46,532 bases of DNA from a virus, in the IMG/VR virus record IMGVR_UViG_3300025645_000012, positions 1-46,532 of that record. The stretch is one strand, 5' to 3'. How positions within the stretch are numbered: position 1 is the stretch's first letter; each line of letters starts with the position of its first letter. The position numbers were made by a program, and so were the translations under genes. The notes beneath the pieces were generated by a model. That model did no database searches and was not told where the DNA came from. It saw only the letters and a program-made list of their open reading frames with translations. Below, in pieces: positions 10,591 to 42,964 of the stretch.

Positions 10591-10775
10591 TGATCAAACC
10601 ACAGGAATTTAACGCGACTTTAAATAAGATACGCGCACGTGAACTTAAAAAGCGTTATTACGAAATTGAAATATTGAAAGAAGATATAAAAGACGCGTCG
10701 AAAACTATAAATGTTTTGATATTCATCATTGTATCGTTACTCGCATTTATAGCTTTTCTACTGATTAAATCATAG
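10590..10775 (+). CDS. Small tail-anchored membrane protein (61 aa)
   Basis: ATG 10590 overlaps the stop of the zinc gene by one base (TGATG), implying translational coupling; a GTG at 10587 is the alternative start. Residues 1-40 are charged and helical (ARELKKRYYEIEILKEDIKDASKT), followed by one hydrophobic segment (INVLIFIIVSLLAFIAFLLI) and a Lys-Ser end. This is the layout of a C-tail anchored inner-membrane protein. I do not recognise a family. It may tether its partner to the membrane. Confidence 0.65.
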   Translation: MIKPQEFNATLNKIRARELKKRYYEIEILKEDIKDASKTINVLIFIIVSLLAFIAFLLIKS

Positions 10776-10780
10776 ACAAC

Positions 10781-10803
10781 AAAAAGCCCGCTCAACGGCG
10801 GGC
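10781..10803 (-). terminator. Terminator of the two-gene regulatory cassette
   Basis: GCCCGC-tcaacg-GCGGGC (10786-10803) with five A before it on the plus strand (U-tract on the minus transcript). It overlaps the last codons of the HTH-like gene. With the next 26 bases it forms a unit repeated at 11273-11325. Confidence 0.75.
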
Positions 10804-10977
10804 AATGTTTAACATCACATCTTCCCCTTTAACTTTCCTAATACTGTTTGGCGGGTACATTACCGCCTCACCATCAAGCACTCCGAACTTCCAACCCTTT
10901 TTAATTCGGTTCTCGATTACCTGGCGAGATTCGCCTTGTGACTCGGCGAACTCGCGTATGTTTTTTATTGATTTCAT
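10792..10977 (-). CDS. Small HTH-like protein, possible repressor (61 aa)
   Basis: ATG 10977 has a strong SD AAGGAG six bases upstream. The sequence KNIREFAESQGESRQVIENRIKKGWKFG looks like a helix-turn-helix of the MerR/excisionase or Cro type, followed by a wing-like GEAVMYPPNSIRK. It is second in a two-gene unit; the SD overlaps the stop of the first gene. The promoter of the unit carries two 15-bp palindromes, which is what an autoregulated repressor gene needs. The DNA-binding assignment is by eye and no nuclease or enzyme motif is present. Confidence 0.55.
   Translation of the reverse strand: MKSIKNIREFAESQGESRQVIENRIKKGWKFGVLDGEAVMYPPNSIRKVKGEDVMLNIARR
10806..10831. repeat. 26-bp direct repeat, copy 1
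   Basis: Identical to 11300-11325. Both copies follow a GCCCG..CGGGC terminator with an A-run. Here it encodes the end of the HTH-like protein (KGEDVMLN); in the other copy it encodes the end of the outer spanin in another frame. The pair bounds the regulatory cassette. Confidence 0.9.
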
Positions 10978-10978
10978 T

Positions 10979-11185
10979 TTAGCTCCTTGCTGCAACAAAT
11001 GTTTCAACGGCTAACAATCCGCGAACCTTTTTAAATCCAGGTAAGAAAGTGCCGCAATCGGTAACCGCGTAAACTGTGCCGTCAGTTAGACAATATTTAT
11101 CATCACCAAAATTAAATTCAACGCTGTCATTGCTGATGATTTTACCGTTGAACTTTTCCGCTACTGCTTTAACTAATTTGTTCAT
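10979..11185 (-). CDS. Small protein of unknown function in regulatory cassette (68 aa)
   Basis: First gene behind the double-operator promoter. ATG 11185 (MNKLVKAVAEKFNGK) has GGGAA upstream; the frame is open to 11251 but that start lies within the promoter. The product mixes a helical basic N-terminus with beta-like EFNFGDDKYCLTDGTVYAVTDCGTFLPGF and has no membrane segment. Its TAA overlaps the SD of the next gene. I do not recognise the family. Given the context it may be an anti-repressor, a superinfection or host-interaction factor; none of these is shown by the sequence. Confidence 0.6.
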   Translation of the reverse strand: MNKLVKAVAEKFNGKIISNDSVEFNFGDDKYCLTDGTVYAVTDCGTFLPGFKKVRGLLAVETFVAARS

Positions 11186-11222
11186 TTTATTTCCCGTTGG
11201 TATGTTTCGTTTCGATGTAGTA

Positions 11223-11262
11223 ACTATAGCAAACGTTATTTGCTTATGCAAACGATATTTGC
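11223..11262 (-). promoter_or_regulatory. Promoter with two tandem palindromic operators
   Basis: On the minus strand: -35 TTGCAT (11251-11246), 17-base spacer, -10 TATAGT (11228-11223). Two near-identical 15-bp palindromes, GCAAACGTTATTTGC (11229-11243) and GCAAACGATATTTGC (11248-11262), have centres 19 bp apart; the first fills the spacer and the second covers the -35. This is a classic repressed-promoter layout. It drives the genes 11185-10979 and 10977-10792. Confidence 0.75.
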
Positions 11263-11272
11263 ATTTAATTAT

Positions 11273-11297
11273 AAAAAAAGCCCGTCACGTGACGGGC
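11273..11297 (-). terminator. Terminator of the spanin operon
   Basis: An 18-bp perfect palindrome GCCCGTCACGTGACGGGC (11280-11297) preceded by seven A on the plus strand. It follows the outer-spanin stop by eleven bases and insulates the regulatory cassette that starts just beyond it. Confidence 0.85.
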
Positions 11298-11299
11298 AG

Positions 11300-11325
11300 T
11301 GTTTAACATCACATCTTCCCCTTTA
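11300..11325. repeat. 26-bp direct repeat, copy 2
   Basis: Identical to 10806-10831 and in the same relation to a terminator hairpin. It covers the last codons of the outer spanin (..KGKM, stop). Confidence 0.9.
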
Positions 11326-12492: not shown

Positions 12493-12671
12493 TCGGCACA
12501 CTCCACACATAATTTAACACCAGGTAAAGCCACACGACGCCCCTGTGGAATTTCTTCACCACACGACACGCAATGTGTCGAACTCTTACCAGTGTAACGC
12601 ACACGATTCGCTATCGTAGCGTTAACGATTGTTTCTTCACGGTCTACCGTGCTATCAATAAAATCAGACAT
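12489..12671 (-). CDS. DksA/TraR-like zinc finger protein (60 aa)
   Basis: A 60-aa protein ending in the C4 zinc finger of the DksA/TraR family: HCVSCGEEIPQGRRVALPGVKLCVECAE (C-x2-C-x17-C-x2-C). TraR-type proteins bind the RNA polymerase secondary channel and mimic DksA-ppGpp, so this may redirect host transcription. The short helical N-terminus fits the compact phage versions. It is linked by ATGA to the exonuclease downstream. Confidence 0.82.
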   Translation of the reverse strand: MSDFIDSTVDREETIVNATIANRVRYTGKSSTHCVSCGEEIPQGRRVALPGVKLCVECAE

Positions 12672-12693
12672 ATTGCCACCATAATCAAAAGGG

Positions 12694-12969
12694 TCATGCT
12701 ATGAGCAGCCCTAAAATAACAGAACCTAATAAAACCCAAGTTACCCACGACGGACCACCAGACGCGAGTATATCCGACTCGCTCCACGGTCTGACGTACA
12801 CCGAACAACGATTATCACTTATTCTTTCGACTACAAGTTCCAGTGACTTACAATCGTAATGGTTCACTTCGGTAAACCAAAACAATTCAGCGTCGTCGGC
12901 ACTACAATTTAACACACACTGTCCGTCAGATGGTTGCATTGTGCGTAACGTGCGTATGATGTCACTCAT
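12694..12969 (-). CDS. C-tail anchored membrane protein (91 aa), unknown
   Basis: A soluble N-terminal part (residues 1-70, mixed alpha/beta, with QCVLNCSADDAELFWFTEV) is followed by one hydrophobic segment at the extreme C-terminus (WVTWVLLGSVILGLLIA). The start overlaps the stop of the 59-aa gene upstream (ATGA). No known family recognised. The topology suggests an inner-membrane-anchored cytoplasmic domain, perhaps an exclusion or host-membrane factor. Confidence 0.6.
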   Translation of the reverse strand: MSDIIRTLRTMQPSDGQCVLNCSADDAELFWFTEVNHYDCKSLELVVERISDNRCSVYVRPWSESDILASGGPSWVTWVLLGSVILGLLIA

Positions 12970-13145
12970 TTCCCGAACCCTCTGCTGTTTAAATTATTTA
13001 ATTTCCATTCCGAACGCGCTAACTGCTGTTGACGTGACATAGATATTTTCGCGACAGGATGTGGATCGTCTTCTCCGACTTCCCATCGTAACCCACACGA
13101 GCAAACCATTTCGTCACCTTCACGTGTTTTAATATGTCCGTTCAT
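12966..13145 (-). CDS. Small protein with Cys motif (59 aa), unknown
   Basis: ATG 13145 with SD GGAG; 59 aa (MNGHIKTREGDEMVCSCGLRW...). Residues 14-21 hold a C-S-C-G-x-x-W knuckle followed by EVGEDDPHP, a pattern I associate with short conserved phage proteins of unknown role. It is first behind the promoter at 13198-13226 and its 5' leader carries a hairpin (13164-13184). The stop overlaps the next start by ATGA. This gene is missing from simple length-based ORF calls. Confidence 0.65.
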   Translation of the reverse strand: MNGHIKTREGDEMVCSCGLRWEVGEDDPHPVAKISMSRQQQLARSEWKLNNLNSRGFGK

Positions 13146-13163
13146 AGTAACACTCCGTAAAAT

Positions 13164-13184
13164 AGCGCCTCACATCGAGACGCT
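13164..13184 (-). promoter_or_regulatory. 5'-leader hairpin
   Basis: In the minus transcript AGCGUCUC-GAUGU-GAGGCGCU forms an eight-pair stem with one U-G wobble. The plus-strand version would have a C-A mismatch at that position, so the sense RNA is the one that folds. A near-reverse copy is at 27281-27301, again before an SD. Confidence 0.5.
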
Positions 13185-13197
13185 TTATCTATAACTG

Positions 13198-13226
13198 ATA
13201 TTATACGCTCTTGACGATGTTGTCAA
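13198..13226 (-). promoter_or_regulatory. Promoter with operator-like repeat inside the 3' end of the primase gene
   Basis: On the minus strand TTGACA (13226-13221) is followed by TATAAT at 15 bases (13205-13200) or TAATAT at 17 bases (13203-13198). The repeat TTGAC-N6-GTCAA covers 13211-13226. It drives the operon from 13145 to 11309 and lies within the last codons of the primase gene. Confidence 0.7.
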
Positions 13227-33187: not shown

Positions 33188-33849
33188 TAGATTGGATCCC
33201 CTGAGTTGTCAACCACTGGCGTACCGTTGATGTTATACGTTCCGGCTTCATGCTTGTGGTCGTCACCAACATTAGTACCGTTATGTGTAAACGTTGGTGA
33301 GTCAATGTTAAAACCGGTAAAAGTACCGTTAAACGCACCGCTAGCGTCTAGCGTGAACGAACCCGACGCGTTAGCGACTTCAATCGAGTCGTCATTTTTT
33401 AACCAAAAATACTGAGTACCGTCGGCGTTGCGTAATCGTATACCGTTATTCGCAAAATCGTTGATCACGTTAGGTTGTGAACGTACACCGGGTAAAAACA
33501 CGGCGTCGCTAAGGTCGTGAAATCTCATTATAGGATTTTCAGCAACACCACCCGTTGTCATCCAACCATCGATACAACGTTGTGAGAACAGGATAAACCC
33601 CTCGTCACCTACGTCGATTTGATGTTCAACCGTGAATTTACCACCCTGAAAATGTACCGGAACTTCAATTAACGGTGGCGGCGTAAAGGGTTTACCGTTG
33701 ACGTCCTTGCGTACGATACCGATTTGTATTTGGGCGAGTTGAGTCGCCGGATCGAACGCCAAGACGTGACCCGGTATTGATGTCGCTACGTCTTTCATCA
33801 TTTCGAAAAACGAACGTTTAGTTAATTCAGTGAGTGTCGCTATTTGCAT
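33187..33849 (-). CDS. Baseplate spike protein, Gp138/gpV-like
   Basis: 220 aa. N-terminal OB-type Gp138 domain (PGHVLAFDPATQLAQIQIGIVRKD, IEVPVHFQGGKFTVEHQIDVGDEGFILFSQRCIDGW), then a narrow beta-helix with short repeats and a C-terminal HKHEAGTYNINGTPV, where the H-x-H binds the apical iron in such tips. It pierces the outer membrane. It has no clear SD; upstream is a 500-base non-coding gap with a terminator, unlike the tight spacing elsewhere in the operon. Confidence 0.85.
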   Translation of the reverse strand: MQIATLTELTKRSFFEMMKDVATSIPGHVLAFDPATQLAQIQIGIVRKDVNGKPFTPPPLIEVPVHFQGGKFTVEHQIDVGDEGFILFSQRCIDGWMTTGGVAENPIMRFHDLSDAVFLPGVRSQPNVINDFANNGIRLRNADGTQYFWLKNDDSIEVANASGSFTLDASGAFNGTFTGFNIDSPTFTHNGTNVGDDHKHEAGTYNINGTPVVDNSGDPI

Positions 33850-33864
33850 TATTTGAGTTTAACA

Positions 33865-33889
33865 CAAAAAAATGCCCTCACATAGAGGG
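33865..33889 (-). terminator. Terminator at the end of the candidate ncRNA
   Basis: CCCTC-TATGT-GAGGG (minus strand, 33889-33875) followed by C, A and seven T (33872-33866). It is 16 bases before the spike start. Confidence 0.8.
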
Positions 33890-34069
33890 GAAATGGCAGG
33901 GATTAAATTGCCTCGGTTACGTCTCACGACGTTACGTGGCTGCAAGGTGTCAGTGCCTTGCCACTTACGGATCACCCCCTGTTGGACAGTGTGCCGAGAT
34001 AATGTGATATCTCACCCTACGTTATGCAAAAATGACGTATATCATAACGGAGTTTGTTACGTCTACTAT

Positions 34070-34088
34070 CACATTGCGAAAGTGTTTA
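34070..34088. repeat. 19-bp perfect inverted repeat, arm 1
   Basis: CACATTGCGAAAGTGTTTA is the exact reverse complement of 34187-34205, 98 bases away. The arm can also fold on itself with a GCGA tetraloop, so two alternative structures are possible. Confidence 0.95.
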
Positions 34089-34186
34089 TATGTGTGACAC
34101 GCTCCGATATTCATTAGGGCTTAAAAAGCCTCGGACTTAAGTCACCTTTCGCCTATGCACTCGATACCGTTATCGTTACGGACTCG

Positions 34187-34205
34187 TAAACACTTTCGCA
34201 ATGTG
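34187..34205. repeat. 19-bp perfect inverted repeat, arm 2
   Basis: TAAACACTTTCGCAATGTG, reverse complement of 34070-34088. The ten-base core CACTTTCGCA recurs at 34211-34220. Confidence 0.95.
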
Positions 34206-34332
34206 CCCCACACTTTCGCAGTGGGTGCGGAATATCTCTATTCAACGAAGGTTCAATGTTGACATTACATCAACGAGTTCATTTTAATCACCACTGTGGT
34301 CAAGTGAGAATAACAACTAACCTTGAGTCATC

Positions 34333-34361
34333 AGTATTGACCAACGTGACGATTATGTCAA
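34333..34361 (-). promoter_or_regulatory. Promoter with operator-like repeat for the candidate ncRNA
   Basis: -35 TTGACA (34361-34356), 17-base spacer, -10 AATACT (34338-34333). The repeat TTGAC-ataatc-GTCAC spans 34361-34346. The -35 overlaps the last codons and stop of the hub gene. Confidence 0.5.
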
Positions 34362-42288: not shown

Positions 42289-42333
42289 TATAACACCGAT
42301 AAATTAACCCCGCACTAACCCCACAATAAAATC

Positions 42334-42497
42334 ATTTTGAGGTGCGTTAAGTTGTTGATTCATTACCCTATTATTACCATTACCTTAATACCCCTAATAT
42401 ATATCATATCGTATAGTACAGTATGTTAATAACGTATATACATATATACAATCATACTCATAATATATAATACATCACAGTAATTACTATAGAGAGC
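42334..42497. repeat. AT-rich non-coding element, copy B
   Basis: Same orientation and block order as 9330-9504, with several insertions and substitutions between shared blocks. It lies between the first gene of the tail unit (minus) and the 76-aa gene (plus). Together with a promoter it fills the 375-base gap 42289-42663; nothing else recognisable is there. Confidence 0.85.
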
Positions 42498-42584
42498 CAC
42501 CACGATACGGGTTATTACATTGCGTCGGGTTAACACTGTGAAATCAACACGTTACGCCACCTCAAACACCACCCCGACAAATGA

Positions 42585-42613
42585 TTGACAATCGCGTCAA
42601 CAACGATTAGTAT
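42585..42613 (+). promoter_or_regulatory. Promoter with operator-like repeat
   Basis: -35 TTGACA (42585-42590), 17-base spacer, -10 TAGTAT (42608-42613); TTGAC-aatcgc-GTCAA covers 42585-42600. It drives the 76-aa gene at 42664. Confidence 0.65.
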
Positions 42614-42663
42614 TAATTACAGACGACGAGCATACGGTTCGTTGATTTATTGAGGTGTGTCGT

Positions 42664-42894
42664 ATGAGTGACATAACGCAAGATGAAGTGGATTCGATTT
42701 TCCGTGAAATAAAAAACGAGTGGGATAGGGTAGTATCTGAAAGTGGAAAATCTGAAAAGATGTTTATTATAACTGATAGAACGGGACATGTAAGTGAGTT
42801 CATGTTTAATTACGCACAAGCGAAAGAACATGTCGAAAGCCTTGGTTTGGTCGTGCCAGCTTTTATCGATGGGCTTGAGGTTGCTATTTCATAG
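42664..42894 (+). CDS. Small acidic protein (76 aa), unknown
   Basis: ATG 42664 with GAGGTG eight bases upstream (GTG 42655 is the longer form). MSDITQDEVDSIFREIKNEWDRVVSESGKSEKMFIITDRTGHVSEFMF... is helical then beta, no membrane segment, acidic. It is a one-gene plus-strand unit with its own promoter-operator and a strong hairpin after it, placed between the two late blocks like the 44-aa gene at 3939. Not recognised. Confidence 0.68.
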   Translation: MSDITQDEVDSIFREIKNEWDRVVSESGKSEKMFIITDRTGHVSEFMFNYAQAKEHVESLGLVVPAFIDGLEVAIS

Positions 42895-42923
42895 TAACGA
42901 TGAATCGAACCACCCTAGTGTTA

Positions 42924-42958
42924 AACACGACACGCTATGTTACATAGCGTGTCGTGTT
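42924..42958. terminator. Perfect 16-bp inverted repeat, likely two-way terminator
   Basis: AACACGACACGCTATG, three-base loop TTA, and the exact complement. It lies between the convergent ends of the 76-aa gene (42894) and the DUF4054 gene (42965). T-rich tracts are short, so it may terminate weakly or only protect 3' ends. Confidence 0.6.
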
Positions 42959-42964
42959 ATCCCA

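Follow-up and report, generated by a model that had tools for sequence, protein, structure and literature searches.

What occupies the 503 nt that separate the hub and spike genes in the baseplate operon of this virus? In the window, by which we mean the whole stretch of 46,532 nt that was analysed, the hub gene, on the minus strand, runs down to 34353 and the spike gene, on the same strand, begins at 33849. The interval between them (33850-34352), to which the first-pass annotation had drawn attention, was found to contain no plausible gene. The hub protein matches PHROG 196 and Pfam PF22759, and the genes next after the spike encode baseplate wedge proteins; the identities of hub and wedge were confirmed with PHROGs and Pfam. 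The spike protein matches PF18352, and its label is taken from annotated relatives. Inspection of the letters alone had led to the proposal of a dedicated RNA of about 460 nt. The explanation that we consider likely is that the gap is a self-contained minus-strand cassette for a structured noncoding RNA of this length, which belongs to an undescribed RNA family of marine phages and carries its own promoter and terminator; its expression is inferred. The predicted RNA spans 33868-34326 on the minus strand, with approximate ends, and is placed by the positions of promoter and terminator, by its fold (z -3.6), and by syntenic cassettes. Three further stretches of the window (10591-11308, 12511-13200, and 42289-42964), of 676-718 nt, also lack an ORF of 100 aa.

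A small protein gene or a decayed coding sequence was judged to be a most improbable occupant of the gap. Three relatives (L016, L018, and L019) have an ATG after GGAGG with the frame WQGTDTLQPRNV open, but the corresponding codon reads AAG in the window, L020, and L034, changes in loop length shift the frame, and the cores of Shewanella-type members contain stops. Pfam searches with the ORFs of the gap gave nothing above the cut-off. A protein reading frame conserved across the gap, which would have refuted the RNA proposal, was looked for in the homologues and was not found.

Relatives were viral contigs fetched with the hub and spike proteins. The slot between hub and spike is empty in L013, L014, L035, L049, L052, and the phages phiPLPE and K375, and in L021 and L012 it holds a reverse-strand gene of 178 aa instead of the RNA (L021, 3861-4397). 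In most of the others, including the V. cholerae phages CP-T1 and 138, it is filled by an ORF-free cassette of 300-1033 nt, and the hub proteins of relatives with same-slot cassettes are 43-78% identical. The RNA runs along the operon direction in the window, L016, L018, L019, L020, and L034, and against it in L022, L025, L027, L029-L031, L036, and L037. Promoter-like sites, terminators, the core motif, and the strand of any tRNA folds served to determine the orientation, and they agree. Direct BLAST of the window gap against phages gave no match, and the family was found through neighbouring genes and modules. The same-slot gaps of L004/CP-T1, L038, and L050 were not tied to the family by sequence or model.

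The borders of the cassette are marked by predicted transcription signals. A minus-strand promoter and a strong terminator had both been proposed in the first reading, and a promoter-like site and the terminator are indeed present. The promoter-like site TTGACA-17-AATACT (34333-34361, minus strand) has 10/12 matches, and its -35 box coincides with the last two sense codons of the hub gene. Because such sites occur in the region at about chance frequency (22 found versus 18 expected), the site is weak evidence alone, and it counts only because relatives repeat it at the cassette border: in most of them the 5′ border carries a TTGAC-type site (TTGAC-about 17-TANNNT), whose spacer often includes GTCAC. 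The intrinsic terminator (33865-33889, minus strand) consists of a stem at 33889-33875 followed by CATTTTTTT, and the same element is found in L016 and L018. Directly upstream of the spike ATG lies an extended -10 element (TGTTAAACT, 33856-33864, minus strand), which is the probable spike promoter. Where the slot is filled, most relatives have an extended -10 of the TGTTATACT type directly behind the cassette, and none of five empty-slot relatives has one; therefore, the cassette appears to bring with it a way to restart the operon. The closeness of this element to the spike start codon in the window (33856-33864) suggests a nearly leaderless spike transcript.

The minus strand of the gap folds better than 100/100 shuffles (z -3.6); folding was among the checks that had been suggested for the proposed RNA. 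The plus strand folds nearly as well (z -3.4), so that folding energy cannot assign the strand. The RNA strand is the minus strand, as judged from the promoter, the terminator, fixed G-U pairs, and the strand of the embedded tRNAs.

Two long-range helices, P1 and P2, are built around one shared strand, AATGTGAT, in ten RNAs. In the window, P1 is the perfect 19-nt inverted repeat that had been noticed at the outset (arms 34070-34088 and 34187-34205, 98 nt between them), with CACATTGCGAAAGTGTTTA (34187-34205, minus strand) as the 5′ strand and TAAACACTTTCGCAATGTG (34070-34088, minus strand) as the 3′ strand. P2 pairs AATGTGATA (34067-34075, minus strand), which overlaps the end of P1, with TATCACATT (34001-34009, minus strand). 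At P1 pairs 4-16, standard pairs fill 136/143 cells (95%), versus 51-74 (36-52%) when one strand is slid; compensatory changes occur at pairs 9, 10, 11, 13, and 14, and the helix covaries in 11 sites. Pairs 3, 5, and 14 are mostly G-U, which fits an RNA made from the minus strand.

The first-pass annotation had suggested a bistable RNA, in which each 19-nt arm could also fold alone, and had pointed to three repeats of a GCGAAAG core. The three copies are indeed on the minus strand of the window, but the core is not common to the relatives, and the arms pair together as the covarying P1 rather than each alone; bistability of that kind was dropped. The competition is placed instead between P1 and P2. 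Because P2 and fully extended P1 both use the strand AATGTGAT, they are mutually exclusive, and a switch is possible, unlike the one proposed earlier; model energies in the window are -147.0 kcal/mol for extended P1 and -138.2 kcal/mol for P2. Such a switch, together with the terminator that precedes the spike in the window, might act as a regulatory leader or attenuator of the baseplate operon that sets the amounts of spike and wedge proteins. This reading was considered improbable, given that the cassette lies on the opposite strand in many relatives, that the spike has its own promoter-like site behind the cassette, and that gapless relatives manage without it.

The conserved 3′ core (33910-33979, minus strand) comprises the hairpins H5, which contains GGGGGTGATCC, H6, and H7. 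In the window, H7 is formed by GTAACGTC-GTGA-GACGTAAC (33916-33935, minus strand), with an A.A mismatch and a GNRA loop. In the alignment, 98.7% of its cells are paired, versus 14-46% when slid, four pairs are changed on both sides, and its covariation score was not reached in 500 shuffles or in the slid controls. The shuffles ignore relatedness, and the weight is therefore placed on the slid controls. R1, a covariance model built from the core, was applied to 61 loci totalling 0.48 Mb. Its score of 81.6 bits for the window is not independent, since the window is one of its seeds. Beyond seeds and duplicates, R1 gave nine hits at E up to 1 in these loci, eight of which (L085, L065, L080, L037, L036, L094, L096, and L095) fall on the expected strand of an ORF-free cassette; the ninth, in L005, does not. 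Expected-strand cassettes make up 3.3% of the sequence of the nine loci. The eight hits are not fully independent of each other, and some were fetched by a pattern in the same core, so that a binomial value overstates the case; chance is nevertheless no sensible explanation for them. Covariation among homologous gaps, the check named for the initial proposal, was thus found in P1 and H7, and the model recovers members outside its seeds. The membership features of the proposed family, namely P1 and P2 sharing AATGTGAT and the H5-H7 core, are all present in the window, itself a source of the model. For the 5′ domain, RNAalifold on a MAFFT alignment gave one hairpin only; further helices, picked out by eye, are not put forward as tested. 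The 5′ domain of the window has diverged from that of its relatives.

The core also bears on the proposal that the RNA binds ribosomes, through a motif, GGRGGUGRUCC, complementary to the 3′ end of 16S rRNA, and occupies 30S subunits. The motif is found in the RNA sense in most hub/spike members, as GGGGGTGATCC in the window, and GOLLD has been reported to be ribosome-bound in pull-downs (PMC12286853). Pairing with 16S rRNA was attractive at first, and lost ground because H5 sequesters the motif in a helix in most folds predicted for its group and because other members retain only GGTGRT or less; the motif is also absent from three same-slot gaps. Ribosome binding through this motif is thus regarded as doubtful.

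The interiors of P1 and P2 differ among relatives, and contain true tRNAs, degenerate tRNA-like folds, or a pseudoknot module. In the window they are occupied by plug-in module 1 (34089-34186, minus strand), inside P1, where relatives have other modules, and plug-in module 2 (34010-34066, minus strand), inside P2, where L018 has a tRNA-Arg fold whose acceptor stem is P2 itself. Neither module of the window contains a recognizable tRNA, and ARAGORN and Rfam gave no tRNA or tmRNA match in the window. Members also contain a tRNA-Ser (L018) and a tRNA-Asp (L027), and degenerate tRNA-like folds with a T-loop motif were found in L016, L020, L027, and L030. Trailing tRNAs lie behind the RNA in L085 (Gly), L089 (Met, Ser, Arg), and L090 (Gly, Trp). 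BLAST matches of L018 to T5-like phages were due to its tRNA-Ser.

The module M1 is present in L019, L029-L031, L065, L067, L079, and L085. It also directly follows the four-tRNA array of Vibrio phage K172 (L077, 2474-2590), where it is unannotated and lies upstream of a terminator, and it was found behind the tRNA array in about 190 related Vibrio phages. The pseudoknot predicted for M1 is supported by five different triplet pairs, all complementary, an arrangement matched by 1/120 permutations, and its inner stem exhibits all four Watson-Crick pairs at one position; the pseudoknot module covaries on its own. Other modules are common to L018 and L020, and to L027 and L034. In Pseudoalteromonas phage H101 (L076, 2501-2586), module M2 of L031 lies between small genes, apparently alone. 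Through module M4, L018 and L090 are connected with a tRNA-rich Klebsiella phage locus and with ORF-less gaps in three other phages: CUS-3 of E. coli (the gap between Q and S), one of Aeromonas, and one of Acinetobacter. The stretch of CUS-3 with M4 (L099, 900-1510) is ORF-less, unannotated, and probably structured; parts of it are present, as a mosaic, in 729/5426 complete E. coli genomes. It offers a tractable laboratory model for such an RNA.

Related cassettes were also found in Shewanella phages 1/41 and 3/49, Pseudoalteromonas phages SL25 and HS5, and contigs L065 and L085-L096 except L087, where they sit among structural or late genes. L087 is coding and was rejected as a chance hit. 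In Shewanella phage 3/49 the RNA is reduced to a minimal form of about 260 nt that lacks P1 and P2. When 84,980 bacterial and archaeal genomes were scanned with patterns, no convincing member came to light, and the M1 pattern had no hit in bacterial genomes; the single bacterial hit of a 5′-domain pattern is without the remainder of the motif and was attributed to chance. The family shows that conserved RNA genes can lie in structural-operon gaps left empty in annotations.

The dedicated RNA proposed at the outset is strongly supported by synteny, covariation, the lack of a conserved frame, and the border promoters and terminators of the relatives, with transcription unproven. The reading favoured is a structured RNA of modular build, one of the ornate RNAs of phages but a new family among them. 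At the level of sequence comparison, a bordered cassette, a covarying scaffold, module exchange, and tRNAs inside some members are established; independent transcription, stability as RNA, and late timing are inferences made without expression data. According to this model, the minus-strand RNA would be transcribed apart from the baseplate operon, probably late, and would accumulate as a stable RNA, and the spike gene would receive a fresh promoter behind the cassette. The scaffold would consist of the 5′ domain, P1, P2, and the 3′ core with its GNRA-capped hairpin, and P1 and P2 would serve as plug-in sites for interchangeable tRNAs, tRNA-like folds, and pseudoknots, whose turnover by recombination may suit the RNA to the host.

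The function is most likely that of a GOLLD/ROOL-like, non-essential accessory RNA around translation or tRNA metabolism, a suggestion that rests on analogy, is weakly supported, and remains tentative. It is conceivable, with no more assurance, that phages share a plug-in RNA platform, whose scaffold provides sockets for tRNAs and modules traded across hosts, and which is dedicated to taking over or shielding translation. An equally speculative alternative is an RNA decoy against host defence, in which tRNA and tRNA-like modules are bait or replacements against anticodon nucleases and the like, and an arms race drives the change of modules. High turnover of modules between phages, the mixture of intact and degenerate tRNA folds, and the moron-like character of the cassette, which is absent, reversed, or swapped for a protein gene in some phages, fit a decoy; conservation of the scaffold exceeds the need of a mere carrier, and no defence system or target was identified. 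The decoy differs from the accessory RNA in function only, and is compatible with the anatomy of the modular structured RNA. Natural module swaps, relatives with an empty slot, and the minimal 3/49 member make the roles of scaffold and modules separable by test.

How this RNA relates to known classes was also addressed. GOLLD, ROOL, and other large phage RNAs are elaborate and sometimes very abundant, and to our knowledge they have no known function; a homo-oligomeric RNA cage is a feature of GOLLD. The earlier statement that no known class could be recognized held against Rfam 15, in which no family other than tRNA (in some relatives) reached the cut-off for the window and its relatives, GOLLD and ROOL included. 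Even with permissive filters and E values up to 5, the GOLLD and ROOL models failed to match the window gap, and they matched none of the relatives. Weak hits below the cut-off to CRISPR-DR57, RpsF_leader, tmRNA, Vax2os1, and Histone3 were judged to be due to chance. No description of the family was found in the open-access papers that were searched. Like the new RNA, GOLLD is a large ornate RNA of phages and prophages, lies near tRNA genes, and has a conserved 3′ region and a variable 5′ region, sometimes with tRNAs inside, in its linker (PMC12286853). A tRNA inside the variable region or close by is likewise found in relatives, though not in the window's own copy. The window RNA differs from GOLLD in having no match to its Rfam model and about half its length, and the new family differs in its two defined plug-in stems and in the lack of a convincing bacterial genome hit by two patterns. 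ROOL, too, is large, structured, and found in phages, often close to tRNA islands, and its function is unknown (PMC12286853), whereas the new family has no match to the ROOL Rfam model, and ROOL is described as a single elaborate fold rather than as interchangeable modules. The RNA of about 800 nt between gp139 and gp140 of ICP1, the most abundant ICP1 transcript, is similar in being an abundant ORF-less transcript of a Vibrio phage (PMC7567579), but R1, the only means of comparison, had no hit in that region. Phage tRNA arrays resemble the new family in carrying tRNAs, and M1 lies directly behind such an array in K172; in the new family, unlike in these arrays, the tRNAs and tRNA-like folds sit inside the stems of a larger conserved RNA.
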